60,015 nucleotides of DNA from Acrocarpospora phusangensis. Its GTDB lineage: Bacteria > Actinomycetota > Actinomycetes > Streptosporangiales > Streptosporangiaceae. Positions 8,253-55,342 of the stretch are shown here, piece by piece. Location of the stretch: contig NZ_BOOA01000053.1 of the NCBI RefSeq assembly GCF_016862995.1, positions 1 to 60,015 on the forward strand, read 5' to 3'. The notes beneath the pieces are model-generated. The model was not told the origin of the DNA and searched no databases. It saw nothing but the letters and a program-made list of their open reading frames with translations. Both the position numbers and the translations under genes were made by a program. The stretch's first letter is position 1, and each line of letters begins with the position of its first letter.

Positions 8253-8277
8253 CGCCATCCCCATCACGTACGTAAGA

Positions 8278-9153: not shown

Positions 9154-9163
9154 GATCGGCTCT

Positions 9164-9205
9164 CATTCCACGGTATAGCCATTACTGTAAGGCCTCCGTG
9201 GAATG
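9164..9205. repeat. 10-bp inverted repeat between lipoprotein and methyltransferase genes
   Basis: CATTCCACGG (9164-9173) and CCGTGGAATG (9196-9205) are perfect complements with a 22-nt AT-rich spacer. The arm centres are 32 bp apart, about three helical turns. It may be a terminator for the lipoprotein gene or an operator for the methyltransferase; there is no T run. Confidence 0.5.
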
Positions 9206-9213
9206 GATGGTGG

Positions 9214-10284: not shown

Positions 10285-10332
10285 GATTCGAATACTTGGC
10301 GTGATTTTCCGGCCGGTCGAGGAGACACGCCG

Positions 10333-10539: not shown

Positions 10540-10637
10540 GGCTTTGGCCCCCTCCTGTTTCAGCCACCTGGCAGGCAACGCAATACTAGGCGTTAGCAAC
10601 CCGCGGCCCATGTCGTGCCGGAAAGAAGGAGCCCGAG

Positions 10638-10964
10638 GTGACCTACGTCATCGCGCAGCCTTGCGTGGATGTCCTGGACAAGGCGTGCATCGAGGAATGC
10701 CCCGTCGACTGCATCTACGAGGGCAACCGCATGCTCTACATTCACCCCGACGAATGTGTGGACTGCGGCGCGTGCGAACCGGTCTGCCCGGTGGAGGCCA
10801 TCTTCTACGAGGACGACCTGCCGGAGCAGTGGAAGGACTTCTACCGCGCCAACGTGGACTTCTTCGAGGACCTCGGTTCTCCCGGGGGTGCGTCGAAGGT
10901 CGGCAAAATCGAGAAGGACCACGAAGTCGTCGCCGCGCTGCCCCCGCAGGCTGAGGACCACTGA
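10638..10964 (+). CDS. fdxA: 7Fe ferredoxin
   Basis: Small cytoplasmic electron carrier (108 residues) with one [3Fe-4S] and one [4Fe-4S] cluster. Cluster cysteines are seen in [17 protein letters not shown] and in [12 protein letters not shown], followed by the acidic C-terminal tail typical of actinobacterial FdxA/FdxC. GTG start with GAAGGAG upstream. It precedes dapC, the same order as Rv1177-Rv1178 in Mycobacterium tuberculosis. A GC-rich hairpin (7-bp arms 10982-10988 and 11002-11008, no T run) lies between them and might attenuate read-through. Confidence 0.93.
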
Positions 10965-11036
10965 AGTAGTTTTGTGCCCCGGCCGCCCGCCGCGTCCCGG
11001 TGGGCGGCTGCCGCATGCCCGTAGGGGGGACCTTCG

Positions 11037-12116: not shown

Positions 12117-12127
12117 GATCGCGCGCC

Positions 12128-12739
12128 ATGACGACAGCGGTGGTGCTCGGTTTGAGTGTCGCGACGCTCATCGTCGTGCTTGGCGCGTTCATCGCCACCA
12201 CCCGCCAGGACAGGCGTGCGGCTCCGGCGAACGGCGGCGACTACGGCTCCGGCCACGGGCCCTCGTATTTCGACCCGCGAACCATCAAGGTCGGCGACAC
12301 GGTGCATATCGCGGGTGTGCGCTACCGCGCCATGGGAGCGTTGCATCTTTCCTGGCACGGCGAGGAGTGGACCGAACACCTCCTGGACGACGGCACCCGC
12401 CGCTACCAGTGGCTCTCCGTCCAGGAGCGTGAGGTCCAGCAGGAGGCCGCTCACCTGGAGGTTCTGCTCTGGACACAGGTCCAGGCGCAGGGCATGGTGC
12501 CCGCCAAGAGCATGCTGATCATGGAGGGCGTGGAGTTCTTCCCGATCGAGCGGGGCACTGTCCCGTTCCGGGCCGAGGGCATGACCGGCCTGCCGGACCG
12601 GGGACTGCTGGACTTCGCGGACTATCGGGCCAATGACGGGCGGTTGTTGTCGTTCCAGCGGGTCCAGGGCGGGCAGTGGGTGGCCTCGTACGCCTCGCCG
12701 CTGACCCCTGGCTCGATCCAAGTCGAGCGGCTGGGCTAA
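12128..12739 (+). CDS. DUF4178 membrane-anchored protein
   Basis: A 203-residue protein with an N-terminal membrane helix (about 5-25) followed by a soluble DUF4178-like beta-rich domain (IKVGDTVHIAGVRYRAMG; WTEHLLDDGTRRYQWL). Such proteins have no established biochemical role; some family members sit with polyamine genes, which is not the case here. It follows dapC by 11 bp and may be co-transcribed. Its stop overlaps the stop of the convergent gene by 4 bp. Confidence 0.78.
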   Translation: MTTAVVLGLSVATLIVVLGAFIATTRQDRRAAPANGGDYGSGHGPSYFDPRTIKVGDTVHIAGVRYRAMGALHLSWHGEEWTEHLLDDGTRRYQWLSVQEREVQQEAAHLEVLLWTQVQAQGMVPAKSMLIMEGVEFFPIERGTVPFRAEGMTGLPDRGLLDFADYRANDGRLLSFQRVQGGQWVASYASPLTPGSIQVERLG

Positions 12740-13536
12740 CTCACCGCCATCGGCCCACTTTTGCCGGATTTATCGGCTTGCCAACCGTCGTGTCCATTTT
12801 CGGCGGTCCAGCTGACGCCGTCGTAGCGGATCTGGCGCAGGCCGTACTTCTGCGCGTGGGTGACGTACCAGGTGGCGACCAGCCAGCTGTCCTTGCGGGC
12901 GGCGGCGCCCAGAGCCCGGGTGAGCTCGCCGCGGGCCTCGCCCGGGTCGGCCTTGACCGGTTTCGCGGGCGGCGGGTACCAGCAGTACACGGCGCTGGCC
13001 ACCCGGCCGCTGAACGCGCCGGCCAGGATGATCGCGGTGGCCCGGTGGTCGGCGTACGCCCCGCCGTCGGCCGAGCGCTGGACCTCCTGGGCGGCGTCGT
13101 GCAGTGGCAGGTCCAGGTACCCCTCCACCTTCTCCAGCGCGGCGAAGAACTTCCTGGTCGAGTAGACCGGGTCCATCAGCTGCTTGACCGTGCCCCAGCC
13201 CTGGGACGGGCGCTGCTGGAAGATGCCGACCGAGTCGCGGTCCCCGTACGGGATGTTGCTGAGCTTGGACTCCTGGATGGCGGTGATGTACGCGATCTCC
13301 AGCGCCCGCTCGGGCAGCTTGCGCCGGGCCGCCACGGCGGCGATCACCGCGGCCACCTGGGACTGCTCGATGTCCAGTTCGATCGTTCCGTCCGGCGTGG
13401 TGATCTGACAGTTCTCCCCCCGCACGTACGGCTCCGCCTGCTGGAGCAGCCGGTAGACCGCGAAGAGGATGGCGCCGCCCAGAACAACGACGATGGCCAG
13501 GATGATCAGTGCGGTTCTGGGGACGCGGGTTGTCAC
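12736..13536 (-). CDS. Membrane-anchored lysozyme/transglycosylase-fold protein
   Basis: A 266-residue protein with an N-terminal membrane helix (about 8-30) and an extracytoplasmic domain. The motif AITAIQES-type glutamate (AYITAIQESKLSN) followed by GDRDSVGIFQQRPSQGWG matches the actinobacterial lysozyme-like family, in which the glutamate is the expected catalytic acid of a lytic transglycosylase or muramidase fold. Activity is inferred. Databases sometimes misname this family as a heavy metal transporter; nothing here supports that. GTG start. Convergent with the DUF4178 gene and divergent from dapE. Confidence 0.75.
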   Translation of the reverse strand: MTTRVPRTALIILAIVVVLGGAILFAVYRLLQQAEPYVRGENCQITTPDGTIELDIEQSQVAAVIAAVAARRKLPERALEIAYITAIQESKLSNIPYGDRDSVGIFQQRPSQGWGTVKQLMDPVYSTRKFFAALEKVEGYLDLPLHDAAQEVQRSADGGAYADHRATAIILAGAFSGRVASAVYCWYPPPAKPVKADPGEARGELTRALGAAARKDSWLVATWYVTHAQKYGLRQIRYDGVSWTAENGHDGWQADKSGKSGPMAVS

Positions 13537-13574
13537 GTCCCAGAACCTACCCGGACTCCCTAGGCTGGTGTCTC

Positions 13575-14621
13575 ATGCGACTGGATCAGGACGTCAGGAC
13601 CCTCACCGCCGAACTGGTGGACATCGCCTCGGAGAGCGGGAACGAGAAACCGCTCGCCGACGCCGTCGAGGCGGCGCTGACCAGGCTGGGGCATCTCACC
13701 GTGGACCGGGACGGTTCCAACGTGGTGGCCCGCACCCACCTCGGCCGGCCGGAGCGTGTGGTGGTGGCCGGGCACCTGGACACCGTCCCGATCGCCGGGA
13801 ACGTGCCCAGCAGGATCGACGGCGACCGCCTGTACGGCTGCGGCACCACCGACATGAAGAGCGGCGTGGCCGTCCAGCTCAAACTGGCCCTGCTGACCGA
13901 GCCCAACCGCGACCTCACCCTGGTCTTCTACGACTGCGAGGAGGTCGAGGCGGCCCGCAACGGCCTCGGCATGCTGGTCAGGGAGCACCCCGACTGGGTG
14001 CGCGGCGACTTCGCGGTGCTGATGGAGCCCACCGACGGGGAGATCGAGGGCGGCTGCCAGGGCACGATGCGGGCCGAGGTGCGGACCACCGGCGTGCGCG
14101 CCCACAGCGCCCGCTCCTGGCTGGGCGTCAACGCCGTGCACCGGGCCGCCGAGATCCTCAACCGGCTGCTCGCCTACGAGCCGCGCAAGCCGGTGGTGGA
14201 CGGCCTGGCGTACCACGAGGGCCTGAACGCGGTGCGGATCGACGGCGGGCATGCCGGGAACGTCATCCCGGACGAGTGCGTGGTGACGGTCAACTACCGC
14301 TTCGCGCCCGACCGGACCGAGGCGGAGGCGGCCGGCTTCCTGGCGGAGTTCTTCGCCGGCTTCGACGTGCGGATCACCGACAGCGCGCCCGGCGCCAGGC
14401 CCGGCCTGGACCACCCGATCGCGTCGGCCTTCGCCGCCATTGTCGGCGGCCCTCCGCAGGCCAAGGTGGCGTGGACGGACGTGGCCCGTTTCTCGGCGCT
14501 CGGCGTCCCGGCCGTGAACTACGGACCCGGCAATCCGGAGGTCGCCCACAAACGGGACGAGTACGTCGAACTTGCCAAGATCGTCGAAGCCGAGCGGGTC
14601 ATGACCAGCTGGCTGACCTGA
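13575..14621 (+). CDS. dapE: Succinyl-diaminopimelate desuccinylase
   Basis: M20-family dinuclear zinc hydrolase (348 residues) that removes succinate from N-succinyl-LL-diaminopimelate, giving LL-DAP for lysine and peptidoglycan. Metal and catalytic residues are visible: H67 and D69 (GHLDTVP), D93 (TTDMKSG), and the acid pair E122/E123 (CEEVE). The ATG at 13575 starts the family-like N terminus; the frame is open upstream to 13509 without support. dapC upstream supports the pathway. A strong hairpin terminator follows 20 bp after the stop. Confidence 0.92.
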   Translation: MRLDQDVRTLTAELVDIASESGNEKPLADAVEAALTRLGHLTVDRDGSNVVARTHLGRPERVVVAGHLDTVPIAGNVPSRIDGDRLYGCGTTDMKSGVAVQLKLALLTEPNRDLTLVFYDCEEVEAARNGLGMLVREHPDWVRGDFAVLMEPTDGEIEGGCQGTMRAEVRTTGVRAHSARSWLGVNAVHRAAEILNRLLAYEPRKPVVDGLAYHEGLNAVRIDGGHAGNVIPDECVVTVNYRFAPDRTEAEAAGFLAEFFAGFDVRITDSAPGARPGLDHPIASAFAAIVGGPPQAKVAWTDVARFSALGVPAVNYGPGNPEVAHKRDEYVELAKIVEAERVMTSWLT

Positions 14622-14641
14622 GCGGATACCCCCAGAAAGAA

Positions 14642-14687
14642 GAAAGTGGCTTTCCTCGCCGGCCATTTGGCGGGGAAAGCCACTTTC
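14642..14687 (+). terminator. Rho-independent-type hairpin after dapE
   Basis: A perfect 14-bp stem (14642-14655 with 14674-14687) encloses an 18-nt loop that can itself form a 4-bp stem. It lies 20 bp after the dapE stop. The T run is weak, as is common in high-GC actinobacteria. Confidence 0.8.
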
Positions 14688-14749
14688 CGTCCCGAGCAGC
14701 ACCCTCGACTCTTAGACGCGGCCTCCGCGAAAACCGGTTCCGCTCGTTT

Positions 14750-14775
14750 CCGAAGAATTTCAAGATTCTTTTCGG
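14750..14775. promoter_or_regulatory. AT-rich imperfect inverted repeat upstream of the first LOG gene
   Basis: CCGAAGAAT (14750-14758) and ATTCTTTTCGG (14765-14775) pair with a 2-nt bulge around a 6-nt loop; the inner 6 bp are perfect. It lies about 34 bp upstream of the LOG start and is strikingly AT-rich for this genome. Either a second terminator or an operator in the promoter. Confidence 0.35.
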
Positions 14776-14808
14776 ACCCTTCCCGGGGCGGGGGTACGGT
14801 GAGTCGGC

Positions 14809-15603
14809 ATGAACACGATCCGCCCTGAACGACGCCAGGGGCCGTCTCTCGTCCGTGGCAGCCTGGTGCCCGATTCCACCCATGACCAGCGGCTGCTCGA
14901 TCGGCGGGGGCCCGCCGACTGGGTGCACATGGACCCGTGGCGGGTGCTGCGCATCCAGGCCGAGTTCGTCGAGGGGTTCGGCGCGCTGGCGGAGTTGCCG
15001 CCCGCGGTGACGGTCTTCGGCTCGGCCCGTACCAAACCGGACTCCGGTGAGTACGACATGGGGGTGCGGCTCGGGCGGGGTCTGGCCGAGGCGGGGTACG
15101 CGGTGATCACCGGAGGCGGGCCCGGCTGCATGGAGGCCGCCAACAAGGGCGCGCTGGAGGCGGGCGGCGTCTCGGTGGGTCTCGGCATCGAGCTGCCGCA
15201 CGAGCAGAGCATGAACCCGTACGTGGATCTCGGCGTGGAGTTCCGCTACTTCTTCGTGCGCAAGACCATGTTCGTGAAGTACTCCTCCGGCTTCATCACC
15301 CTGCCGGGCGGGTTCGGCACCCTGGACGAGCTGTTCGAGGCGCTCACCCTGGTGCAGACCCGCAAGGTGACCTCCTTCCCGGTCGTCCTGATGGGCACCC
15401 GGTTCTGGGGCCCGATGGTCAGCTGGATCAAGGACACGCTGCTCGCCGAGGGCAAGATCTCGCCGCCGGACGTGGAGCTGATCCGGTGCACCGACGACGT
15501 GGAGGAGGCCATCCGGATCATCGTGGAGGCCGACCGGCTGCGGAGCGAGACCGAGACGGTGGAGCGGGAGTCGGTCGAGCAGACCGTGGCCGACGCCCAA
15601 TAA
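14809..15603 (+). CDS. LOG-family (TIGR00730) nucleotide phosphoribohydrolase-like protein 1
   Basis: Rossmann-fold protein of 264 residues related to cytokinin-activating LOG enzymes, which split nucleoside 5'-monophosphates into base and ribose 5-phosphate. The two family motifs are present: GGGPGCMEAANKGA and PGGFGTLDE. An N-terminal extension of about 65 residues precedes the core. Substrate in actinobacteria may be AMP-like nucleotides rather than cytokinins. It is followed 20 bp later by a second LOG protein, and dapE plus LOG is a recurrent actinobacterial order (compare Rv1202-Rv1205). Confidence 0.88.
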   Translation: MNTIRPERRQGPSLVRGSLVPDSTHDQRLLDRRGPADWVHMDPWRVLRIQAEFVEGFGALAELPPAVTVFGSARTKPDSGEYDMGVRLGRGLAEAGYAVITGGGPGCMEAANKGALEAGGVSVGLGIELPHEQSMNPYVDLGVEFRYFFVRKTMFVKYSSGFITLPGGFGTLDELFEALTLVQTRKVTSFPVVLMGTRFWGPMVSWIKDTLLAEGKISPPDVELIRCTDDVEEAIRIIVEADRLRSETETVERESVEQTVADAQ

Positions 15604-43466: not shown

Positions 43467-44111
43467 CTAGGACGTCTCCGGGGACACCTCTGGCGTGTGC
43501 CGGGGGAATCCGCTGATACCCCGCCAGGCCAGCCGGGCCATCAGCTGGGTGGCGGCCTCCTTGGGGATCGAGCCCTGCGCGGTCAGCCAGTAGCGCGCGC
43601 TCACCTCGGCCATGCCCACCAGGCCGACGCCGAGCAGGTGGGCCTCGTCGCTGGAGCAGCCGGTGTCCTCCTGGATGACCTGGGCGATGGCGTCGGCGCT
43701 CTCCCGCAGCGAGCGCTCCATGCGCTGCCGCACGGGCGCCACGTTCCGCAGGTCGGACTCGAAGACCAGCCGGAACGCCTCGCCCTGGCTGGAGATGAAG
43801 TCGAAGAACGCGCCGATGGCGGCCTGCACCCGCTGCTTGTTGTCCGGCGTGGCGGCCAGCGCCTCCTTGCAGCGGGTCACCATGTCGTCCACGTGCAGGT
43901 CCAGCAGGGCCAGGTAGAGCTCCAGCTTGCCCGGGAAGTGCTGGTAGAGGACCGGCTTGCTGACCCCGGCCCGCTCGGCGATCTCGTCCATCGCGGCCGC
44001 GTGGTAACCGTTCTCCACGAACACTTCCTGCGCCGCGCTGAGCAGCTGGCGGCGGCGGGCCAACCGGGGCAGCCGGGTGCCCCGGGGCTTGGCGTCCGGG
44101 GTAGCGGTCAC
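43467..44111 (-). CDS. TetR-family transcriptional regulator
   Basis: A 214-residue regulator with the N-terminal TetR helix-turn-helix (MDEIAERAGVSKPVLYQHFP) and a ligand-binding helical domain. GTG at 44111 is chosen because AAGGAG lies 6 nt upstream; ATG at 44168 is the alternative. The order TetR-DUF3107-ferritin-DEAD-box matches Rv3208-Rv3211. Ligand and targets unknown. Confidence 0.9.
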   Translation of the reverse strand: MTATPDAKPRGTRLPRLARRRQLLSAAQEVFVENGYHAAAMDEIAERAGVSKPVLYQHFPGKLELYLALLDLHVDDMVTRCKEALAATPDNKQRVQAAIGAFFDFISSQGEAFRLVFESDLRNVAPVRQRMERSLRESADAIAQVIQEDTGCSSDEAHLLGVGLVGMAEVSARYWLTAQGSIPKEAATQLMARLAWRGISGFPRHTPEVSPETS

Positions 44112-44188
44112 GACGGTCTCCTTGAAGGGCTCTTGCGGGTCCCGCGCCTGGCGTTCACGGGGACTCATCCTACGCGCGGGTAACCAGG

Positions 44189-44362
44189 TCAGCGATAGTC
44201 GTCTTCGTCGTCCAGGCCGACCTCGCGGCCCTGCTCCGCGGCGTCCGCCGGGTCTGCTTCCAGGGAAATCTCCAGCGGCCAGGGGCCTTCGTCGGGGCGC
44301 AGCGTGCGACTCTGCTCGACCAGGTCGGCCTCGGCGGCGTCCAGCGAGTTCATCTCGGACAC
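44189..44362 (-). CDS. 57-residue acidic small protein in the NHEJ neighbourhood
   Basis: A short gene between LigD polymerase and TetR. GTG at 44362 has GGGAGGA 4-5 nt upstream; an in-frame ATG lies three codons in (44353). The product is strongly acidic: it begins MNSLDAAEADLVEQSRTL, has a central GPWPLEISLEA and ends GLDDEDDYR. Codon use (third-position G/C) looks like real coding. It starts 33 bp after the LigD polymerase stop. No homologue recognised; function unknown. Confidence 0.65.
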   Translation of the reverse strand: MSEMNSLDAAEADLVEQSRTLRPDEGPWPLEISLEADPADAAEQGREVGLDDEDDYR

Positions 44363-44395
44363 GGTGTCCTCCCGCGTTGTGGGCTTCCTCCCAGC

Positions 44396-45274
44396 CTACG
44401 GGAACAGGTCCCCGAACTCGGCGACCCGCGCCAGCACGTCGGGCCCGGTGAACACGAGCTGATCTGCGCTTTCGCAGTCCTCGACCTCCTCCCAGGAAAG
44501 CGGGGCCGACACGGTGGGCTGGGCGTTGGCGCGCAGCGAGTACGCGGCCACGGTGGTCTTGGCCGGATTGTTCTGGCTCCAGTCGATGAAGACCTTGCCC
44601 GGCCGCAGCCGTTTGCTCATCACGCTGGTCACCAGGTCGTGCCCGGCGTCCAGGAGACGGGCCAGCTCCTTGGCGTACGGGGAGGTGGCGCGGTCGGGGT
44701 CGGGCCAGGGCACGTGCAGCTGCATGCCCTTGTTGCCGCTGGTCTTGGGGTAGCAGGCGTGGCCGTCCGCGGCGAGCGCGTCGCGCAGCAGCACCGCCAC
44801 CCGGCAGCACTCCACGATCGTGGCCCCGGGGCCCGGGTCCAGGTCGAAGACGAGGATGTCCGGCGGCAGCGCCGCGCCCTCCGCGGAGACCCGCCACATC
44901 GGCACGTGGATCTCCAGCGCGGCCAGGTTGGCGTAGTAGACCAGGGTGGGCAGGTCGTCGACGACGGCGAACTCGATGCTCTCCCGGTCCTTGGTGCTCC
45001 CCGGCACGGGCAGGGTGACCCGGCGGATCCAGGGCGGCGTGTGCCTGGGCGCGTTCTTCTCGAAGAAGAAGGGTCCCGTCACGCCGTTCGGGTAGCGCTT
45101 GACCGTGAGCGGGCGCCCGCGCAGGTGCGGCAGCATCGCCGGCGCGATCCGGGAGTAGTAGTCGATCACCTCCGCTTTGGTGAAGCCGGCCTCCGGGTAG
45201 AGCACCTTGTCCAGGTTGGTGAGCACGAGCTGCTTGCCGTCCACGACCACGGGGACCTTCGCGGGAACCTTCAC
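44396..45274 (-). CDS. ligD: LigD-type NHEJ polymerase/primase
   Basis: Stand-alone polymerase domain of bacterial LigD (292 residues), an archaeo-eukaryotic primase-type enzyme that fills ends with ribonucleotides before ligation. Seen: FFFEKNAPRHTPPW, ALEIHVPMWR, the metal Asp pair in FDLDPGPGA and TSGNKGMQLHVPW. GTG start (45274) overlaps the stop of the ligase gene by 4 bp. In many actinobacteria polymerase and ligase are separate like this; the phosphoesterase domain is not in the window. Confidence 0.92.
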   Translation of the reverse strand: MKVPAKVPVVVDGKQLVLTNLDKVLYPEAGFTKAEVIDYYSRIAPAMLPHLRGRPLTVKRYPNGVTGPFFFEKNAPRHTPPWIRRVTLPVPGSTKDRESIEFAVVDDLPTLVYYANLAALEIHVPMWRVSAEGAALPPDILVFDLDPGPGATIVECCRVAVLLRDALAADGHACYPKTSGNKGMQLHVPWPDPDRATSPYAKELARLLDAGHDLVTSVMSKRLRPGKVFIDWSQNNPAKTTVAAYSLRANAQPTVSAPLSWEEVEDCESADQLVFTGPDVLARVAEFGDLFP

Positions 45275-46212
45275 AGCCGGACCTCCGCGGGGATTCTGCC
45301 GGGGCGCAGGCCGCGCCAGGCCGGGTGGCGGAGCCGGCGCTCCTCGGTCCACATGGTGAAGGTGACCTCGCCGACCAGCTCGGGCCGGACCCAGTGCGCG
45401 TTCCTGGCGATCTCCCGCGGCAGCGGCTGCGAGTACGGGCTGCGCGGCACCTCCAGCGCGCGCAGCACCCGGTACAGCTCGTCCAGCATGGCGTCGCTGA
45501 AGCCGGTGCCCACGTGGCCGACGAAGACGAACTCCGAGCCCCCGCCGGGCAGGTCGGCGTACATGCCGAGGAGGAGTGAGCCGACGCCGCCCTCGCGGCG
45601 GCCCTTGCCGGGCCGCCAGCCGCCGACCACCGCCTCGGTCTCGCGCAGGTTCTTCACCTTGATCCACCACGGAGTGCGCAGCCCCGGCCGGTACGGAGAG
45701 TCCAGCCGTTTGGCCACCACGCCCTCCAGCCCCTGCTCCTGGGTCGCCGCCACCACGTCCGGATCACAGGGGAAGTTGGGCGGCACGACCAGGCCGGGCA
45801 GTCCTTCCAGCAGGCGCCGGCGGGCGGAGTAGGGGAGGTGAACGAGGCTCTCGCCGTCCAGGTGGAGGAGGTCGAAGGGCATGTAGCGGACCGGGACCCG
45901 GGTGAGCAGCCCGTGCGCGGCCGGGTCGGTGATGTGCATGCGGCGCTGGAGCAGTTCGAAGCTGGGCCGCCCGAGGGCGTCCAGCGCGACCACCTCGCCG
46001 TCCAGGATCACCTCGTGCCCCGGCACCCGCAGCGCTGAAATTTCGGGATACCGGGAGGTGAAATCGGTGCCCTTGCGGCCGGTGATCCGGATCGTCTGAT
46101 CGATGTAGACGATCGCGCGGATGCCGTCCCACTTCACTTCCAGGGCGTAGTTCGCCGCGTCCACCGGCAGGTTTCCGGGGACGGCGAGCATGGGTTCGAC
46201 CGGATATGGCAT
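45271..46212 (-). CDS. ligD: ATP-dependent DNA ligase of the LigD type
   Basis: NHEJ ligase domain protein of 313 residues. The adenylation lysine is in EVKWDGIRA, followed by ligase motifs GRKGTDFTSRYPE (III region), ILDGEVVAL, EGVVAKRLDSPY (IV) and WWIKVK (V), then an OB-fold. ATG at 46212 gives the family start MPYPVEPMLA; GTG at 46218 is possible. Divergent from ku, with 83 bp between the starts, so the NHEJ genes can share one control region. Confidence 0.92.
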   Translation of the reverse strand: MPYPVEPMLAVPGNLPVDAANYALEVKWDGIRAIVYIDQTIRITGRKGTDFTSRYPEISALRVPGHEVILDGEVVALDALGRPSFELLQRRMHITDPAAHGLLTRVPVRYMPFDLLHLDGESLVHLPYSARRRLLEGLPGLVVPPNFPCDPDVVAATQEQGLEGVVAKRLDSPYRPGLRTPWWIKVKNLRETEAVVGGWRPGKGRREGGVGSLLLGMYADLPGGGSEFVFVGHVGTGFSDAMLDELYRVLRALEVPRSPYSQPLPREIARNAHWVRPELVGEVTFTMWTEERRLRHPAWRGLRPGRIPAEVRL

Positions 46213-46295
46213 TGCCACAGTGGGTATCTGCCCATTAGGTAAGTCCCTTGAATCCCGATATAGCGGTATTCGAACAAAGAGACGAGTATGTGGCT

Positions 46296-47189
46296 ATGCG
46301 TAGCATCTGGAAGGGCGCCATCTCGTTTGGTCTGGTGACGATCCCGGTGAAGCTGTACTCCGCCACCGAGCAGAAGGACGTGACCTTCCACCAGGTGCAC
46401 CGCGCCGACGGGGGCCGCATCAAGTACCGGCGGGTCTGCCAGATCGACGGCGAGGAGGTCCCCTACTCCGACATCGCCAAAGGGTACGAGCTGGCCACCG
46501 GCGAGATCGTGGTGCTCACCGACGACGACTTCGCCGACCTCCCCCTGACCACCTCCCGCCGGATCGACGTGCTCCAGTTCACCCCGGCCGAGCAGATCGA
46601 CCCCATCTACTTCGCCAAGACGTACTACCTGGAGCCGGACGCCCAGGGGGCCAAGCCGTACGTGCTGCTGCGGGACGCGCTGGAGCGGTCGGGGCAGGTG
46701 GCGGTGGTCAAGGTGGCGCTGCGGCAGCGGGAGTCACTGGCCACGCTCCGGGTACGGGACGGGATCTTCGTGCTGGAGACGATGCTCTGGCCGGACGAGG
46801 TCCGGGTGGCCGACTTCCCGTTCCTGGAGGAGGACGTGGAGGTCCGCCCGCAGGAATTGAAGATGGCCGAGTCGCTGATCGAGACGATGGTCGCGGACTT
46901 CGATCCGGGGGAGTACCGGGACGCCTACCGGGAGGCGCTGCAGGAGGTCATCGAGGCCAAGGTCGCCGGGCGTGAGGTCGTCGCGCCCGAGGTGGCTCCC
47001 GAGGAGGGGCCGGCCGTGGACCTGATGGCCGCGCTCCGGGCCAGCGTGGAGGCGGCGAAGAAGGAGCGTGAGGCGGCCAAGAAGCCGGCCGCGAAGCCCG
47101 CCGCCAAGACCGCCGCCAAGTCCGCGAAGCCGGCGGCGGAAGAGGAGGAGAAGCCCGCGGCCAAACGCCGGGCCAAGAAGTCCGCCTGA
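46296..47189 (+). CDS. ku: Ku end-binding protein
   Basis: Homodimeric Ku (297 residues) that binds double-strand ends and recruits LigD. The beta-barrel bridge domain starts at MRSIWKGAISFGLVTIPVKL. The C-terminal ~50 residues are a Lys/Ala/Pro-rich basic tail (AKPAAKTAAKSAKPAA) like those that modulate DNA binding in other bacterial Ku proteins. ATG at 46296; the frame is open to 46248. A strong hairpin terminator follows 17 bp after the stop. Confidence 0.94.
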   Translation: MRSIWKGAISFGLVTIPVKLYSATEQKDVTFHQVHRADGGRIKYRRVCQIDGEEVPYSDIAKGYELATGEIVVLTDDDFADLPLTTSRRIDVLQFTPAEQIDPIYFAKTYYLEPDAQGAKPYVLLRDALERSGQVAVVKVALRQRESLATLRVRDGIFVLETMLWPDEVRVADFPFLEEDVEVRPQELKMAESLIETMVADFDPGEYRDAYREALQEVIEAKVAGREVVAPEVAPEEGPAVDLMAALRASVEAAKKEREAAKKPAAKPAAKTAAKSAKPAAEEEEKPAAKRRAKKSA

Positions 47190-47206
47190 TCACCCGGGAT
47201 GCCCTT

Positions 47207-47298: not shown

Positions 47299-47682
47299 TT
47301 ACCACCAGCCGCCGCCACCGCAGCCGCCGCGGCGGTGCCCGCCGCAGCCGGTGTTGCAGCCGCGGTTCCAGCGGTGGTGGTGGCACCCGACGTGGTGGTG
47401 ATGGTGGCGGATGTGCCCGAAGTGGTGGTGGCGGTGGTGGAAGTGGCCATGGCTGTGGTGGCGGTGGTGATGGTGCCCGAAGTGCCGGTGATGGCCGAAG
47501 TGCTGGTTGAAACCGAACTCCCGGTTGTGGCCGAAACCGCGCTCGCCGAAGCCCTCTTCGCCGAAGCTGTCGAAGCCGGAACTGGCTTGGGCGGGGGTCG
47601 CCATGGTGGCAGTCGCCAGGGCGGCACCGCCTGTGGTGATTGTGGCGGCGATCAGTGCTGTGGCGATTCGCTTGAAACGCAT
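47299..47682 (-). CDS. Secreted histidine-rich protein 1
   Basis: A 127-residue protein with a Sec signal peptide (cleavage near AQA, about residue 33) and a mature part with about 28 histidines, FG-containing spacers (GFGERGFGH), a His cluster region (HHHHRHHSHGHFHHRHHH) and a Cys-bearing end (CHHHRWNRGCNTGC) rich in glycine. Such composition suits binding of Ni, Zn or Cu outside the membrane; no enzyme motif. Tandem paralogue of the upstream gene, separated by 72 bp with a 9-bp repeat. Confidence 0.85.
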   Translation of the reverse strand: MRFKRIATALIAATITTGGAALATATMATPAQASSGFDSFGEEGFGERGFGHNREFGFNQHFGHHRHFGHHHHRHHSHGHFHHRHHHFGHIRHHHHHVGCHHHRWNRGCNTGCGGHRRGGCGGGGWW

Positions 47683-47754: not shown

Positions 47755-48138
47755 TTACCAGCGGCCGCAGCCGCCGCGCCAGCGGCGGGCCCCGCAGCCG
47801 ACGTTGCAGCCGCGGTTCCAGCGGTGGTGGTGGCACCCCACGTGGTGGTGATGGTGGTGGTGCCGGATGTGCCCGAAGTGGTGGTGCCGGTGGTGGAAGC
47901 GGCCGTGGCCGTGGTGGTGGTGACGGTGGTGGCCCCAGTGCCGGTTGAAGCCGAAGTCCTCGTTGAAGCCGAAGCCCCGGTTGTTGCCGAAGCCGAAGCC
48001 CTCGTCGCCGAAGCTGTCCGAGCCGAAGTCGGACGAGCTCGCCTGTGCGGGCGTCGCCGTGGCGGCGGTGGCGAGAGCCGCGCCGCCGGTGGTGAGAGCG
48101 GCGGCGATCAGCGCGCTGGCGATGGTCTTGAACTGCAT
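47755..48138 (-). CDS. Secreted histidine-rich protein 2
   Basis: Paralogue of protein 1 with the same length (127 residues), signal peptide (cleavage near AQA), FG-rich segment (GFGFGNNRGFGFNED), a His cluster with seven consecutive histidines, and the conserved end VGCHHHRWNRGCNVGC followed by an Arg/Gly/Trp-rich tail. About 24 histidines. The Cys pattern is kept between both copies, so disulfides or metal sites are likely. No metal transporter or maturation gene is adjacent. Divergent from an alpha/beta-hydrolase gene. Confidence 0.85.
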   Translation of the reverse strand: MQFKTIASALIAAALTTGGAALATAATATPAQASSSDFGSDSFGDEGFGFGNNRGFGFNEDFGFNRHWGHHRHHHHGHGRFHHRHHHFGHIRHHHHHHHVGCHHHRWNRGCNVGCGARRWRGGCGRW

Positions 48139-49189: not shown

Positions 49190-49301
49190 GCGGTTGCCGG
49201 ATTGGGGAATGCGGGGACACCCGAGCTAGGTTGAGATGTGACACGTGGGCGCGTGAGTCCGCGTGAGCCGTACCCCGAATGCCCTGAAATGGGAGAGAAC
49301 T

Positions 49302-50483
49302 GTGTCGTTGCCACCGCTGGTCGAGCCGGCTGCCGAGCTCACCGTCGACGAGGTGCGTCGCTACTCGCGCCACCTGATCATTCCCGATGTCGGGATGGCC
49401 GGGCAGAAGCGGCTGAAGAACGCCAAGGTCCTCTGTGTCGGCGCGGGCGGCCTCGGGTCCCCGGCGCTCATGTACCTGGCCGCGGCCGGGGTGGGCACGC
49501 TGGGCATCGTCGACTTCGACATCGTGGACGAGTCCAACCTCCAACGGCAGATCATCCACGGCCAGTCCGACGTGGGCCGGCTGAAGGCCGAGTCGGCCGC
49601 CGCGTCGGTGCGCGAGATCAACCCCCTGGTCAACGTCGTCATCCACAACGTGGCGCTGACCACCGACAACGTCATGGACATCTTCGCCGGCTATGACCTG
49701 ATCGTGGACGGCACCGACAACTTCGCCACCCGCTACATGGTCAACGACGCGGCCGTGCTGCTCGGCAAGCCGTACGTGTGGGGTTCGATCTATCGGTTCG
49801 ACGGGCAGGCCAGCGTCTTCTGGGCCGAGCACGGCCCCTGCTACCGGTGCCTCTACCCGGAGCCCCCGCCCCCCGGCATGGTCCCCTCCTGCGCCGAGGG
49901 CGGCGTGCTCGGCGTGCTCTGCGCCTCGATCGGCTCCATCCAGGTCAACGAGGCCATCAAGGTCCTCACCGGCGTGGGCGATCCGCTGGTCGGCCGGCTC
50001 ATGATCTACGACGCGCTGGAGATGAAGTACCGCGACGTCCGGGTGCGCAAGGACCCCGAGTGCGTGCTGTGCGGCAAGAACCCCACGGTCACCCAGCTCC
50101 TGGACGACTACGAGGCCTTCTGCGGCACGATCTCCGACGAGGCCGCGCAGGCCGCGCTGGGCGCCACCATCACCGCCGCCGAGCTCAAGCAGATGAAGGA
50201 CCAGGGCGAGAACATCTACCTGATCGACGTCCGCGAGCAGAACGAGTACGAGATCGTCAGCATCCCCGGCTCGGTTCTCATCCCCAAGGGCGAGTTCCTC
50301 AGCGGCGCCGCCCTGGAGAGCCTGCCCCAGGACAAGCGCATCGTCCTGCACTGCAAGTCGGGCGCCCGCTCCGCCGAGGTCCTCGCCGTCCTGAAGAGCG
50401 CCGGTTTCTCCGACGCGGTGCACGTCGGCGGCGGTGTCCTCAGCTGGATCAAGACCGTGGACCCCTCCCTGCCGACGTACTGA
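49302..50483 (+). CDS. moeZ: Adenylyltransferase/sulfurtransferase MoeZ
   Basis: E1-like ThiF/MoeB domain fused to a rhodanese domain (393 residues); it adenylates and thiocarboxylates small ubiquitin-like sulfur carriers for molybdopterin, cysteine and other sulfur routes. ATP loop VGAGGLGSPAL, Zn-binding CYRC and CVLC, and the rhodanese persulfide Cys C351 (HCKSGARSAE) are intact. GTG at 49302 with GGGAGAGA upstream. Confidence 0.94.
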   Translation: MSLPPLVEPAAELTVDEVRRYSRHLIIPDVGMAGQKRLKNAKVLCVGAGGLGSPALMYLAAAGVGTLGIVDFDIVDESNLQRQIIHGQSDVGRLKAESAAASVREINPLVNVVIHNVALTTDNVMDIFAGYDLIVDGTDNFATRYMVNDAAVLLGKPYVWGSIYRFDGQASVFWAEHGPCYRCLYPEPPPPGMVPSCAEGGVLGVLCASIGSIQVNEAIKVLTGVGDPLVGRLMIYDALEMKYRDVRVRKDPECVLCGKNPTVTQLLDDYEAFCGTISDEAAQAALGATITAAELKQMKDQGENIYLIDVREQNEYEIVSIPGSVLIPKGEFLSGAALESLPQDKRIVLHCKSGARSAEVLAVLKSAGFSDAVHVGGGVLSWIKTVDPSLPTY

Positions 50484-50555: not shown

Positions 50556-51275
50556 GTGAAGGAGCGACGCAGTTGGCCGACGATGCTGGTGGCGTCCGCT
50601 CTCACGGTCAGCTGCGCGCTGGTCGCCGGGGTGGGGGCCAGCGCCGCGCTGGCTGAGCTGACCCGGCAGCCCACCACGCAGGAACTCCGCCAGGCGGCGG
50701 CGGCCGAGGTCGGCCGCCGCTGGCGGGTGTGGCCGGCCGGGAAGGTCTTCCCGGCCACCATCGCCTACACCGGCGAGCAGGGCGGCGCGGAGCGGGCGCG
50801 GCGGGTGGGCATCTCGGCCAGGACCGACTGCGCCGCCGCCGTGGACGCGGCGCTCCGCGAGACCATGAAGGCCGCCCGCTGCCAGGGCGTGCTGCGCGCC
50901 ACCTACCTGGACGCCCTGCAGGGCATCGTGGTCACCGTGGGCGTGGCCGCGTTCCCCGACGCGGGGGCCGCCGACAGTGCCGCCGCCGCGCTGCCGCAGG
51001 GCGGCAAGCCCGCGCCGGGCCTGCGCGCGCTGGCCTTCCCGCGCACGGTGGCGGACCGCTTCACCGCGGCGGGCCGTCAGGTCGCCACGGTACGGCGGGC
51101 CGGGCCGTACCTGGTCATGACGACCGCGGGGCAGACCGACGGGCGGCCGGCGAGGGCGCTGGGACGGCAGCGGCCGACCATGTTCACCTTCACCGGCGAC
51201 CTGGCCGACCAGATCGCCAAGGACCTGCTCACGCCCGTGTTGCCGGACTGCGCGTCCAAGGAGTTCCAGTGCTGA
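50556..51275 (+). CDS. Membrane-anchored partner of the subtilisin-like protease (module 1)
   Basis: A 239-residue protein with a single N-terminal membrane helix (about 9-33) and an extracytoplasmic domain. Four cysteines (C92, C109, C232, C239) are spaced as in the paralogue at 52586 (C129, C146, C271, C277); the first pair is exactly 17 apart in both, so disulfides are likely. Shared motifs: RRWxxWPA, FPxxxxYTG, ARRVG and ITVGVA-like. The GTG start (50556) has AAGGTCGGGG upstream. Its last 7 bp overlap the protease gene. No known domain; function unknown. Confidence 0.78.
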   Translation: MKERRSWPTMLVASALTVSCALVAGVGASAALAELTRQPTTQELRQAAAAEVGRRWRVWPAGKVFPATIAYTGEQGGAERARRVGISARTDCAAAVDAALRETMKAARCQGVLRATYLDALQGIVVTVGVAAFPDAGAADSAAAALPQGGKPAPGLRALAFPRTVADRFTAAGRQVATVRRAGPYLVMTTAGQTDGRPARALGRQRPTMFTFTGDLADQIAKDLLTPVLPDCASKEFQC

Positions 51276-52576
51276 AACCGCTGCGCGCGCTCCTGACCCT
51301 GCTGCTTCTGGCACTGCCGGGCCTGCTGGCCGCTCCCGCCGCCGCCGACGACGTGCGGGGGAGCCAGGCCGCGGTGCTCAGGACGCTGGGGCTGGCGAAG
51401 GCATGGCAGGTCACCAAGGGCCGTGGGGTGCTGGTGGCCGTGCTGGACTCCGGGGTGGATCCGGGGCACCGCGACCTGGTCGGGTCCGTACGGATCGGCA
51501 AGGACTTCACCGAGGGCGCCAACCCCAGCGACGTGGAGCCCGTACGCCTGCACGGGACGTACATGGCCTCCCTGATCGCCGGGCACGGGCACGGCCCGGG
51601 ACGCGGCGACGGCGTGATCGGCGTCGCCCCCGAGGCCCGCGTGCTGTCGGTACGGGTGATCCTGGAGGACGAGGAGCCCGGCTTCCGCACCTTCAACGCC
51701 GAGGCCAGATACGAGGGCGTGGTCGCCAAGGGCATCAGGTACGCGGTGGACGCCGGCGCGGACGTGATCAACCTGTCCATCTCCAAGGACCTGGCCACCG
51801 AGGCCGAGCGGGCCGCCATCCGGTACGCGATCTCCAAGGGCGTGGTGCTGGTCGCGGCGGCGGGCAACGACGGCGCGGGGCGCAGGACGGCGCCGTTCTC
51901 CTATCCGGCCTCGATCCCCGGCGTGATCTCGGTGGCGGCCGTGACCAGCACGATGACCCGGGCCTCCTTCTCCAACCGCAACTCCTCGGTGATGCTGTCC
52001 GCGCCGGGCGTGGACATCCTGGGCGCGGGACCGGACAACGAGTACTGGGTGGGCCGGGGCACCTCCCAGGCGACCGCGCTCGTCTCCGGCGTCGCCGCCC
52101 TCATAAAAGCGAAATATCCGAAAATGTCGCCTGCGGTGGTGGCGCAGGCGCTGGCCTCCTCCGCGGTGGCCCCCGGCGGCGCCCGGGCCGCCCGCTACAA
52201 CACCGGCACCGGCTTCGGGGTCGTCAACGCCTCCCGCGCGCTGCGCATGGCCGCCGTGCTCTCCCGGCACCGGGCCATCGCGTCCGGGCCCGGCGTGCAG
52301 CACCCGGACCGCCCGATCGCCAGCGCCCCGCCGGAGCCGGTCGTCGTCGTCAACCGCAATCAGCAGGCCATCACCGTGTTCGCCGGGATCGGCCTGGCCG
52401 GTCTGCTCGGCGCCGGCGGTGGGCTCATGGTGGTGGTCTTCCTGGTCAGAAGGGCCAGACGCAACGCCGGTGTGGTCGCCATCCGGCGGCATCCGCTACC
52501 ACAACCGACGCCCCAGCCGATGCCACCGACTGAGATACCTCTACCGAATCGTTGGCATACGGACGCATCGACGTAA
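51269..52576 (+). CDS. Subtilisin-like (mycosin-type) serine protease, membrane-anchored
   Basis: S8 protease of 435 residues with signal peptide, complete catalytic triad D60 (VLDSGVD), H95 (LHGTYMASLIAG), S266 (GTSQATALVSG), oxyanion N200 (AAAGNDG), and a C-terminal membrane helix (about 367-392) with a short cytoplasmic Pro-rich tail. This layout is that of mycosins of type VII secretion, but no esx/ecc genes are in the window. GTG at 51269, AAGGAG upstream; overlaps the partner gene by 7 bp. Confidence 0.88.
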   Translation: MLKPLRALLTLLLLALPGLLAAPAAADDVRGSQAAVLRTLGLAKAWQVTKGRGVLVAVLDSGVDPGHRDLVGSVRIGKDFTEGANPSDVEPVRLHGTYMASLIAGHGHGPGRGDGVIGVAPEARVLSVRVILEDEEPGFRTFNAEARYEGVVAKGIRYAVDAGADVINLSISKDLATEAERAAIRYAISKGVVLVAAAGNDGAGRRTAPFSYPASIPGVISVAAVTSTMTRASFSNRNSSVMLSAPGVDILGAGPDNEYWVGRGTSQATALVSGVAALIKAKYPKMSPAVVAQALASSAVAPGGARAARYNTGTGFGVVNASRALRMAAVLSRHRAIASGPGVQHPDRPIASAPPEPVVVVNRNQQAITVFAGIGLAGLLGAGGGLMVVVFLVRRARRNAGVVAIRRHPLPQPTPQPMPPTEIPLPNRWHTDAST

Positions 52577-52585
52577 CATCAGAGT

Positions 52586-53419
52586 ATGTCGCCTCAGCAG
52601 CCACGGACCGGCCGTACCCGGGTGCGCCCGTGGCCTGCCTCGCGGGGACGTGCCGCCGCCGCGCAGGCCGCCAGGGAGCGCGCCGAGTTAGCCCGCGGCA
52701 TCCGGCTCCGCTCGATCTTCCTGGCCGTCATGGCCGCGGTGCTCGGCGCCTCGGCCATCACCGTGCTGCTGGGCATCGCCGCCCTGCTCCAGGAGACCAG
52801 GTCACGCCCGCTCACCGGCGCCGAGCGCGCCGAGTACGTGAAGCAGGACGTCGCGCGCCGCTGGCATGACTGGCCGGCCACTGTGGTCTTCCCGGAGGAG
52901 CTCGAATACACCGGGCTGGCCCGTACCCAGCAGTTCGCCCGCAGGGTCGGGGTGGCGCCGGAGATCCCGTGCTGGGCCGGGGTGGACGCGTCGGTCGCCT
53001 CGGTGCTCAACGAGAGCGGCTGCCGGGTCCTGCTCCGTTCCACGTACGTGGACCAGTCGGCCACGTTCGCGATCACGGTCGGCGTGGCCGTGCTCAAGGA
53101 CGAGGACGCCCGCGTCAGCGCCGCCGCCAAACTCCCGGTGGACGACCGGGTCGGCGTGCGCCCGGTGGCCTTCCCCGGGACGGTCACCGACCGGTTCGGG
53201 GCCGCCCAGCGGCAGCGCTCCGCGTGGGTCGGCGTCGGTCCCTACATTGTCTTCGTCACGACGGGGTATACGGACGGCAGGACGCGAGACTCGATCCCGC
53301 CGGAGGAGGCCTTGAACAGCGAGATGTGGCCGACCGCGCAGGCCATCGGCGGCCGGGTGGCCCGTTCCCTGGGCGAGGAGCCCGACGTGCCGCGCTGCAC
53401 CCAGGGGAACGTGTGCTGA
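52586..53419 (+). CDS. Membrane-anchored partner protein (module 2)
   Basis: Paralogue of the module 1 partner: 277 residues, a longer Arg/Ala-rich cytoplasmic N terminus, one membrane helix (about 43-68), and an outside domain with the same four-cysteine pattern (C129, C146, C271, C277) and motifs (RRWHDWPA, FPEELEYTG, ARRVGV). It overlaps the following pseudoprotease gene by 7 bp, exactly like module 1. ATG at 52586, 9 bp after the active protease gene. Function unknown. Confidence 0.78.
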   Translation: MSPQQPRTGRTRVRPWPASRGRAAAAQAARERAELARGIRLRSIFLAVMAAVLGASAITVLLGIAALLQETRSRPLTGAERAEYVKQDVARRWHDWPATVVFPEELEYTGLARTQQFARRVGVAPEIPCWAGVDASVASVLNESGCRVLLRSTYVDQSATFAITVGVAVLKDEDARVSAAAKLPVDDRVGVRPVAFPGTVTDRFGAAQRQRSAWVGVGPYIVFVTTGYTDGRTRDSIPPEEALNSEMWPTAQAIGGRVARSLGEEPDVPRCTQGNVC

Positions 53420-54537
53420 GGACCGCCGCCTCGCTGGCGGCCACCGTGATGGTCCTGGTGGCCGCGCCCGCGCCGACCCCGTTGGACCGGTTGAACGTCG
53501 CGCCCGTCTGGAAGCAGACCAAGGGCTCCAGCATCACCGTGGCCGTGCTCAGCCAGCGGGTGGACGCCAACGCCCCCGAACTCCGCGGCCGGGTGGTCCA
53601 CGCGCCCGACATGACCGGCAACTACTACTCCGGCCCCGACACCCGCTCCGGCCCGTACGGCACCGCCATGGCCGCACTCATCGCCGGGGACGGCCGCGGC
53701 GGCGGCGTTCAGGGCGTGGCCCCCGAGGCGCGCATCATGTCGGTGCCCGTGCTCGCCCCCCCGCTGGGGAACGAGCTCATCGACCCGCAGGCCGGCAGCG
53801 GCGGCATGATCGACAGCCCGATCGCCCGGGGGATCAGATACGCGGCCAACCACGGCGCCCAGGTCATCCTGGTGCCGGTCGGCTCCTTCGGCGTGGCCAG
53901 GATCGACCGGGACGCGGTGGCGTACGCGCTGGCCCGGGGGGTCGCGGTCGTGTCGGGCGTAGGGGACTTCGGGCAGTCGCCGTACGCGCGGGAGACGGGC
54001 ACCTCCTACTGGCAGTTCCCGGCCGGCTACCCGGGCGTGATCGGCGTGGCCGCGGTGGACGACAAGAACGCGGGCGCGCCCTTCAGCAGCGACAACCTCT
54101 CGGTGCTGGTCGGGGCGCCCGGAGTGGAGATCCCGGTGGCCGGCGGGCAGCGGGTGACCGGGACCGGCTCGGCCGGCGCCCTGGTCGCGGGCGTGGTGGC
54201 GCTGATCAAGGCGGCGTACCCGGAGCTGACCCCGGATCTGATCGCGCGGGCGCTCACCGAGGGCACCAGGACCCAGCCGCCGGCCGGCTACGACGACAAG
54301 ATCGGCTTCGGCGTGGTCAACGCCGAGCGGGCCTTCACCCGCGCCGGGGAACTGGCCGCCTACCAGCGCGCCCTCGACGTCTCCGGCGAGTTGCACTTCG
54401 GCGGTGGACCGCTCTCGGAAGGACCCGTGCGCCCCGGCCCGGATCCGGTTAGGCTCTGGGTCTACGGCATCGGAGTGGTGCTGGGCCTGGGCGCCTTCGG
54501 CGTCTCGGTGATACTGCTGGCGCGCCGTGGCAGCTGA
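53413..54537 (+). CDS. Subtilisin-fold pseudoprotease, catalytic triad lost (module 2)
   Basis: A 374-residue S8-fold protein with signal peptide and C-terminal membrane helix (about 348-370) like its active neighbour. At every catalytic position the residue has changed: Asp to S47 (VLSQRV), His to Y82 (GPYGTAMAALIAG), oxyanion Asn to D185 (GVGDFG), and Ser to G252 (GTGSAGALVAG, with a Ser one place later). The scaffold (PEARIMSVPV, FPAGYPGVIGVAAV, GFGVVNAERA) is well kept. It is not a broken gene; a binding or regulatory role is likely. GTG at 53413. Confidence 0.85.
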   Translation: MLRTAASLAATVMVLVAAPAPTPLDRLNVAPVWKQTKGSSITVAVLSQRVDANAPELRGRVVHAPDMTGNYYSGPDTRSGPYGTAMAALIAGDGRGGGVQGVAPEARIMSVPVLAPPLGNELIDPQAGSGGMIDSPIARGIRYAANHGAQVILVPVGSFGVARIDRDAVAYALARGVAVVSGVGDFGQSPYARETGTSYWQFPAGYPGVIGVAAVDDKNAGAPFSSDNLSVLVGAPGVEIPVAGGQRVTGTGSAGALVAGVVALIKAAYPELTPDLIARALTEGTRTQPPAGYDDKIGFGVVNAERAFTRAGELAAYQRALDVSGELHFGGGPLSEGPVRPGPDPVRLWVYGIGVVLGLGAFGVSVILLARRGS

Positions 54538-54638: not shown

Positions 54639-55040
54639 ATGGGTTACGAGTTGCGCGTGGAGCGGGAGATACCGCTCGGCTACACCGAACTCGCGAAGTC
54701 GCTGTCGGCCGACACCTCCCCTGAGGCGTCCGAGGCCGGGTTCGAGCTGCGCGGGTTGCGGGAGGCCGGCGAGGTGGTCGTGCGCTTCGGCGACGCGACA
54801 CACACCGTCGCGACCTGGGCCACCTCCGCCTGCCGCCTGGTGGGCGAGCCCGCGTCCGACTGGCAGCTGGCCCAGCTGGCCGTCCTGTCCGGGCTGGTCG
54901 GCGGGCGGCTGACCGGCGAGGACGGCGAGGTGTACGCCGTCAGGGACGGCATCCTGGAGCAGGTGAGCGGCTCCTCGACGCTCGAGTTCGGCAAACTGGA
55001 GGAACTTCTGGCGGCCGGGCCGAGCAGCTGGAGCGAATGA
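54639..55040 (+). CDS. Small hypothetical protein
   Basis: A 133-residue soluble protein without recognised domain (begins MGYELRVEREIPLGYTELAK; a beta pattern at REAGEVVVRFGDATHTVATW). ATG at 54639. Its stop overlaps the ATG of the alkyltransferase-like gene by 4 bp, so the two are coupled. Confidence 0.75.
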   Translation: MGYELRVEREIPLGYTELAKSLSADTSPEASEAGFELRGLREAGEVVVRFGDATHTVATWATSACRLVGEPASDWQLAQLAVLSGLVGGRLTGEDGEVYAVRDGILEQVSGSSTLEFGKLEELLAAGPSSWSE

Positions 55041-55342
55041 GGCCGGAACCGTCGCCGTACGCGGAGCGGGTGCTCGACCTGGTCGAACGCATCCCGCCCG
55101 GCAAGGTCATGTCCTACGGCGACGTGGCCGAATACCTCGGTGAGGGCGGTCCCCGGCAGGTCGGCAGCGTGCTGTCGATCTGGGGTGGCGGCGTCCCGTG
55201 GTGGCGCGTCATCCGAACAGATGGAACTCCGCCACCGGGACACGAAAGCGAGTGTCTGCGCAGGTGGCGCGAGGAGGGAACACCGGTCAAAGGGGCCCGA
55301 GCCCAGATGAGTAGGGCACGATGGGACGGAACTCCTCTGTGA
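55037..55342 (+). CDS. Alkyltransferase-like (ATL) DNA-binding protein
   Basis: A 101-residue MGMT DNA-binding domain in which the methyl-accepting Cys is replaced: the PCHR motif reads P54-W55-W56-R57. ATL proteins bind O6-alkylguanine and hand the lesion to nucleotide-excision repair rather than repairing it themselves. Helix-turn-helix GKVMSYGDVAEYLG is present. ATG overlaps the previous stop by 4 bp. Mycobacterial Rv3204 is the positional equivalent, upstream of AdnA/AdnB. Confidence 0.9.
   Translation: MRPEPSPYAERVLDLVERIPPGKVMSYGDVAEYLGEGGPRQVGSVLSIWGGGVPWWRVIRTDGTPPPGHESECLRRWREEGTPVKGARAQMSRARWDGTPL

Follow-up and report, generated by a model that had tools for sequence, protein, structure and literature searches.

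Why does an actinomycete encode, beside a subtilase with a complete catalytic set, a second subtilase in which that set is entirely replaced, and does this arrangement belong to type VII (ESX) secretion? The question is raised by a 60,015-nucleotide stretch of Acrocarpospora phusangensis DNA (contig NZ_BOOA01000053.1; "the window" below means this whole stretch), in which a module of two consecutive gene pairs occupies positions 50556-54537. Each pair encodes a membrane protein, here called the partner, followed by a membrane-anchored protein of the subtilisin-like S8 family. We judge the chances to be about even that the pairs form an ESX-independent envelope protease-sensor unit and that in one clade S8-2, the second subtilase, became a pseudoprotease acting by binding. 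The module consists of the following features.

50556-51275, forward strand: partner 1, a single-pass membrane protein with a PknH_C-like extracellular domain, Cys 92/109/232/239 and a C-terminal Cys
51269-52576, forward strand: S8-1, a mycosin-like subtilase with a signal peptide, a C-terminal membrane helix and intact D60/H95/N200/S266
52586-53419, forward strand: partner 2, a partner 1 paralogue (37% identity) that has four Cys and in which the part preceding the membrane helix is longer
53413-54537, forward strand: S8-2, a tail-anchored pseudo-subtilase with a predicted subtilisin fold and a replaced catalytic set
51269-51275, forward strand: overlap 1, 7 bp (GTGCTGA), joining the Cys-stop of partner 1 and the start of S8-1
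53413-53419, forward strand: overlap 2, 7 bp (GTGCTGA), joining the Cys-stop of partner 2 and the start of S8-2

A conserved module of two partner-subtilase pairs

The earlier note on this DNA had described two pairs of the same design with exact 7-bp overlaps, and its four open reading frames (ORFs) and both overlaps were recovered. Hydropathy gave every partner a single membrane segment and both S8 proteins a signal-like N-terminus and one C-terminal membrane segment, which is the mycosin-type topology (windows at residues 8 and 374 in S8-1, and at 1 and 352 in S8-2). The two S8 proteins are 37% identical, as are the two partners, indicating a duplicated pair. Because the terminal Cys codon of the partner shares two bases with the S8 start codon, the terminal Cys and the overlap depend on one another and do not count as separate pieces of evidence.

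Window S8-2 carries S47, Y82, D185 and G252 at the columns aligned to S8-1 D60, H95, N200 and S266, confirming the earlier description of a complete set in S8-1 and replacement at all four positions in S8-2. The codons concerned, together with one further position that distinguishes active from dead S8-2, are listed here; clade A is the main clade of dead S8-2, defined in the next section.

51446-51448, forward strand: S8-1 Asp60
51551-51553, forward strand: S8-1 His95
51866-51868, forward strand: S8-1 Asn200, the oxyanion-hole position
52064-52066, forward strand: S8-1 Ser266
53551-53553, forward strand: S8-2 Ser47, at the catalytic Asp position
53656-53658, forward strand: S8-2 Tyr82, at the catalytic His position
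53875-53877, forward strand: S8-2 Pro155 (Pro in 21/21 dead clade A S8-2, Ser in 33/33 active S8-2)
53965-53967, forward strand: S8-2 Asp185, at the oxyanion Asn position (Asp in 20/21 dead clade A S8-2, Asn in 33/33 active S8-2)
54166-54168, forward strand: S8-2 Gly252, at the catalytic Ser position

Both proteins exceeded the Peptidase_S8 (PF00082) cut-off of 21.8 bits, with 159.6 bits for S8-1 and 85.3 bits for S8-2. By sequence, the window S8-2 is a non-peptidase homologue.

A scan with S8-2 returned 34 loci, comprising 31 from Streptosporangiaceae and three distant matches in metagenome-assembled genomes that were left out afterwards. The 31 named loci belong to Acrocarpospora, Herbidospora, Microbispora and Nonomuraea (one filed as Actinomadura parvosata), making 32 with the window. 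The possibility raised earlier that module 2 is found only in this strain failed, as all four genes were present in the same order in 31/31 named loci. Both modules lay beside a moeZ-type gene on the left, a co-occurrence that the earlier note had proposed to look for, in 29/31, and the contigs of the remaining two loci, L004 and L028, break off at the module. The 7-bp overlap was present at both junctions in all 32 loci (64/64 junctions, window included), and the four Cys were invariant in partner 1 (32/32) and in partner 2 (32/32). This degree of conservation indicates more than chance. The four conserved Cys reported earlier for each partner were thus upheld, with the correction that partner 1 has a fifth, inside the membrane helix, in 29/32 loci. 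S8-1 retained the Asp/His/Asn/Ser set (DHNS) in 32/32 loci, window included. S8-2 retained it in 23/32, which are the Nonomuraea-type loci, and lacked all four residues in 9/32, namely the window, four Acrocarpospora, one Herbidospora and three Microbispora loci.

Catalytic loss and selection on S8-2

A tree of 148 S8 proteins was built after deletion of the five columns surrounding each catalytic residue. Of the 23 Nonomuraea-type loci, 10 were used for this tree and for the neighbour-gene tree, and L183_S1 was left out of the S8 tree as too short. The dead/active label needs two changes on the S8 tree, and a single loss event was rejected on this ground. Clade A unites 21 dead S8-2 proteins nested within active S8-2 (support 83, or 98 without L105), and clade B contains 10 dead copies of other lineages (SERS, SVNI, STRL, GDAY and so on at the four positions), several of which have long branches. 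Among the clade A proteins, Ser was lost in 21/21, Asn in 20/21 (always to Asp), His in 20/21 and Asp in 17/21, counts consistent with the nucleophile having gone early and the rest of the set having eroded later.

Twenty of the 21 clade A genomes, spanning 10 genera including Acrocarpospora, Herbidospora and Microbispora, also form a clade by S8-1 (support 98) and by a tree of five neighbour genes (support 100), indicating that the loss in S8-2 was inherited. By S8-2, L105 (DHDD) falls with the dead clade (support 83), with which it has Pro155 and Asp185 in common. By S8-1 it clusters with three active genomes (support 93), and the neighbour genes do not decide its position. It is possibly a further S8-2 loss. 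Both S8 proteins have the active set in 23/23 Nonomuraea-type loci and in other genera that were sampled beyond the dead clade. Because the S8-1 and S8-2 lineages both run through the family, the duplication predates the loss. The earlier note had proposed duplication followed by selective loss of catalysis; the pairs are indeed duplicates, but the loss did not follow the duplication directly and came later, in the 10-genus clade. The contrast between an active and a dead subtilase is derived and is not the founding design.

Dead S8-2 might instead be a decaying gene that is kept open by co-transcription with conserved neighbours. Some of its features fit such decay: the window copy lacks all four catalytic positions, the replacement residues differ between genera, and S8-2 is faster evolving and less conserved than S8-1 of the same genomes. 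However, a single stop-free frame covers nearly the whole domain in 21/21 sampled dead S8-2 proteins (359-397 aligned residues), their pairwise ratio of nonsynonymous to synonymous substitution rates (dN/dS) is 0.23-0.43, well below 1, and the dead state has been inherited through 20 genomes of 10 genera. Conservation drops mainly around the catalytic residues when the 21 dead proteins are compared with 33 active ones, while Pro155 is fixed and Asp185 nearly so. This comparison sets a younger clade (dead) against a broader set (active), so that equal values away from the site mean a somewhat faster change in dead S8-2. Dead S8-2 is not simply decaying, and we consider the decay explanation very unlikely. 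In line with the earlier reading, module 2 is conserved within its lineage, its frames have stayed open and it evolves under purifying selection.

Distribution of the pair and its relation to type VII secretion

A partner profile searched against 250 family genomes (E <= 0.001) matched 246. By hand count, 189 had a strong match (E < 1e-30), 57 had weak matches only and four had none. One weak match was inspected closely, that of the present genome, and it is a long membrane protein ending in a domain of the partner kind: the 662-aa product of 8193-10181 (reverse strand; L052, contig C29), in which a long N-terminal stretch of low complexity precedes a single partner-like domain at the C-terminus. 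Other family genomes also have weak partner matches in ORFs of similar length.

Seventy-four stretches were taken, of which 71 were module stretches and three (L184-L186) were not module loci; eight of the 71 duplicated named loci and were excluded from the trees as well as from the junction and Cys counts. Loci L083-L122 were chosen as the strongest matches, one or a few per genus, so that the share of dead copies among them is no frequency. A moeZ and/or MGMT-like gene was seen in 62/71 module stretches, and a locus could carry one, two or three pairs. The L182 partner had been counted twice in the junction and Cys tally; with its double count removed, the 63 non-duplicate loci showed the 7-bp overlap at 104/108 junctions. 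It was missing from the first junction at L101 and at L115 and from both at L160. The four-Cys pattern was present in 110/114 partner rows (two window rows included), and three of the four misses were pieces of split matches.

Some loci depart from the two-pair layout. At L169 (7003-10660), three consecutive dead S8 proteins (GLPS, GITD and GYRR) stand behind one partner and are flanked by two active partner-S8 pairs. At L168 the sole S8 is dead, but the same genome has an active pair at L175. L173 (2948-6320) has two partner matches, one of them partial, and its sole S8 is dead (GHRG), with no active subtilase at the locus. A rule that a dead copy always stands beside an active one was rejected, because L173 has a dead S8 alone.

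Outside the family, the partner was searched in 345 class genomes at a threshold of 1e-15. It was found in 29 genomes of one Streptomyces-like genus (a name that we infer) and in one genome of family f4, with E values of 1e-24 to 1e-18. When the Streptomyces-like loci were opened, a mycosin-like S8 followed the partner directly in 14/14, with 38-51% identity to S8-1 and DHNS in 14/14. In four of five longer stretches this copy lies near genes that we take to be infC-rpmI-rplT, and in the fifth the contig breaks off after the S8. None of these stretches gave a moeZ match. The pair is thus conserved independently of its place.

Mycosins are the S8 proteins of type VII secretion, and TIGR03921, the type VII mycosin model, was the closest NCBIfam model to both subtilases. 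S8-1 scored 258.1 bits and S8-2 162.4 bits, both below the cut-off of 278.75, and a TIGR03921 search of the whole genome (a draft of 219 contigs, completeness 100) found nothing above it. EccB was not found in this genome by a search that matched 30/118 class genomes (26 over the cut-off). A search of the genome with EccD gave no match; no control genome matched either, leaving this model without a positive control, and the result was not used. The earlier statement that there are no type VII genes holds within the window, but the genome does encode an EccC-like ORF (180.6 bits, cut-off 509.15) and a WXG100 protein (50.4 bits, cut-off 27.3) on contig C2, which is not the module contig. There (L225), the WXG100 gene (9341-9613) lies beside the 1846-aa EccC-like ATPase (10041-15581) with no S8 nearby, and the sole S8 match on C2 is ~195 kb from the EccC-like ORF. 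WXG100 and EccC-like matches also lie close together in four genomes of the same genus.

Canonical ESX secretion does not explain the module because EccB was not found in this genome; an esx locus elsewhere that accounts for both modules, considered in the earlier note, was not borne out by this search with its working control. Canonical ESX membership was rejected on the missing EccB and on the mycosin score under the cut-off, with weak additional support from the tree position of an S8 from genome G003. In the draft assemblies of G003 and G097, whose EccC matches are over the cut-off, the module lies on a different contig. The sole S8 detected in the ESX region of G003 is placed outside the group of partner-linked S8 proteins (96 by the Shimodaira-Hasegawa-like approximate likelihood ratio test; a long branch and one example), and 40 kb of the G097 ESX region contained no S8 at E <= 1e-10.

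The S8 proteins could nevertheless be mycosins of a divergent type VII machine, used by the EccC-like ATPase and WXG100 protein of contig C2 though encoded elsewhere. Against this stand the S8-1 score, the absence of an EccB match here compared with the 30 class genomes that have one, the separate S8 of G003 and S8-free region of G097, and the distance of the nearest C2 S8 match from the EccC-like ORF. We regard a divergent machine as improbable, although the module may have some looser link to the EccC-like/WXG100 pair. The genome also has an active mycosin-like tail-anchored S8 without a partner gene, beside an apparent oligopeptide ATP-binding cassette transporter (10137-11318, reverse strand; L051, contig C119), and this protein groups with the partner-linked S8 proteins in the tree.

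The partner-S8 pair was not found among the titles and abstract openings listed from the open-licence PubMed Central (PMC) literature on mycosins, including those of Streptomyces and Nonomuraea, or among titles on subtilisin-like proteins of Microbispora. In the portions available, PMC10924467 reports many tail-anchored mycosin homologues and mentions no such partner, and PMC5994538 and PMC11217815 do not treat the pair.

The neighbours of the module in the window are as follows.

49263-50483, forward strand: moeZ-type gene on the left flank (so named in the earlier note)
54639-55040, forward strand: small conserved gene 3' of the module, found in 30/31 named loci
55037-55342, forward strand: presumably an MGMT/alkyltransferase-like gene, the right-hand neighbour in 31/31 named loci

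Farther to the left, 47299-47682 and 47755-48138 (both reverse strand) encode adjacent, very similar 127-aa proteins with a signal-like start, His runs and several Cys, which are possibly metal-binding secreted proteins. Positions 43500-47200 hold divergent genes that we take to be a Ku-like gene (46248-47189, forward strand) and a LigD-type ligase/polymerase gene (reverse strand), a bacterial end-joining set.

Proposed role and comparison with known systems

What the partner might contribute is suggested by its resemblance to the extracellular domain of PknH. PknH_C (PF14032) scored 16.3 bits against partner 1, below the Pfam cut-off of 27, and did not match partner 2; it matched 7/22 members of the partner alignment at E <= 0.1, the best at 3.8e-5. 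The PknH extracellular domain was also the best match of the predicted extracellular fold of the partner. A sequence search of the PDB with the partner returned one de novo design only (E 0.82).

In the mechanism that we propose, each pair would be a co-translated envelope unit, in which the PknH_C-like single-pass partner presents, on the outer side of the membrane and next to the tail-anchored subtilase, a sensor or chaperone domain that probably contains disulfide bonds. The unit would be old, as it also occurs in Streptomyces-like genomes, and independent of canonical type VII secretion. Early in Streptosporangiaceae, it would have been doubled in tandem between moeZ and MGMT with both copies active, and in the Acrocarpospora/Herbidospora/Microbispora clade S8-2 would have lost first its nucleophile and then the remaining catalytic set. 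Dead S8-2 would have been retained as an exported, membrane-anchored pseudoprotease with a predicted fold, and would most likely bind, either as a structural or allosteric subunit of a subtilase-partner assembly or as a receptor-type pseudo-subunit like CspC/CspA. Of this mechanism, the gene layout, the conservation, the loss in one clade and the continuing selection are shown by the data and the fold is predicted, whereas the physical complex, its localisation and what it senses or cuts are parts that we infer. According to the parts of the sources available, mycosins stabilise ESX complexes and their proteolysis is dispensable (PMC5082899, PMC8131196), and the pseudoproteases CspC and CspA form a signalling heterodimer (PMC12880746). 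These precedents make a binding or structural role for S8-2 reasonable.

Alternatively, S8-2 might be a decoy or inhibitor that binds the substrate or propeptide of S8-1 without cutting it and so limits S8-1. It shares the domain architecture and topology of S8-1, and pseudo-subunits of subtilase systems are known as regulators, as far as the accessible parts of PMC12880746 and PMC6636752 show. However, a retained substrate groove is doubtful, since the surroundings of the catalytic site drift most and Ser155 became Pro in 21/21, and we consider a decoy unlikely.

Several observations weigh against a binding pseudoprotease within a sensor unit. In 10/10 dead-clade pairs, dead S8-2 changes more quickly than S8-1 (dN/dS in pairs with the window, 0.23-0.41 for S8-2 versus 0.14-0.31 for S8-1), and away from the active site its conservation is 0.728 versus 0.869 for S8-1 of the same genomes; both results fit partial relaxation. 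The unit can do without the pseudoprotease, as both subtilases are active in the genera sampled outside the dead clade, and L173, with two partner matches, has a dead S8 alone. As described in the part of PMC12880746 available, CspC and CspA form their complex without active CspB. On the side of the partner, its model has a mean predicted local distance difference test score (pLDDT) of 74, and Foldseek alone gave no match with it at E <= 0.001.

More broadly, but still tentatively, the data may describe a family-wide, ESX-independent envelope system of actinobacteria, in which each PknH_C-like sensor is translated in a fixed pair with a tail-anchored subtilase and pseudoproteases arose independently at least twice, giving an active/pseudo surface receptor in Acrocarpospora, Herbidospora and Microbispora relatives. 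The nearest curated model is named "type VII secretion-associated", yet the pair has its own partner in a genome without detectable EccB, and further mycosin-like genes in actinomycetes may be part of another system. The locus also provides a natural series (both copies active, partly eroded, fully eroded), which allows the enzyme-to-pseudoenzyme transition to be located phylogenetically and to be tested in soil bacteria that can be grown in culture. Of most interest to us are the conserved partner-S8 unit in a genome without detectable EccB and the repeated, lineage-fixed loss of catalysis.

Among known systems, the extracellular domain of PknH gives the best match to the predicted fold of the partner, which it may share, together with a weak sequence match and conserved cysteines, whereas the partner has no kinase domain, falls, in the window, below the Pfam cut-off and is encoded with a subtilase. 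The periplasmic stress sensor RseB aligns with the partner over just 98-99 residues, with a Z score within the range of common arrangements and without a shown sequence relation. The mycosin MycP (TIGR03921; MycP1 and MycP5 of ESX) shares with the module the S8 fold, the N-terminal signal and the C-terminal membrane helix; it also works with a membrane protein and has a structural role, and its proteolytic activity is not always needed (PMC5082899 and PMC8131196, in the parts available). In contrast, the S8 proteins of the module score below the mycosin cut-off, have a PknH_C-like partner instead of EccB and no adjoining ESX genes, and occur in a tandem duplication whose second copy is catalytically dead in one clade. 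The Csp proteins of Clostridioides difficile are soluble spore proteins of another phylum and have no PknH_C-like partner. To our knowledge, the Csp subtilases also lack a membrane anchor. Their likeness to the module lies in the combination of an active subtilase (CspB) with related pseudoproteases (CspA and CspC) that have signalling roles.

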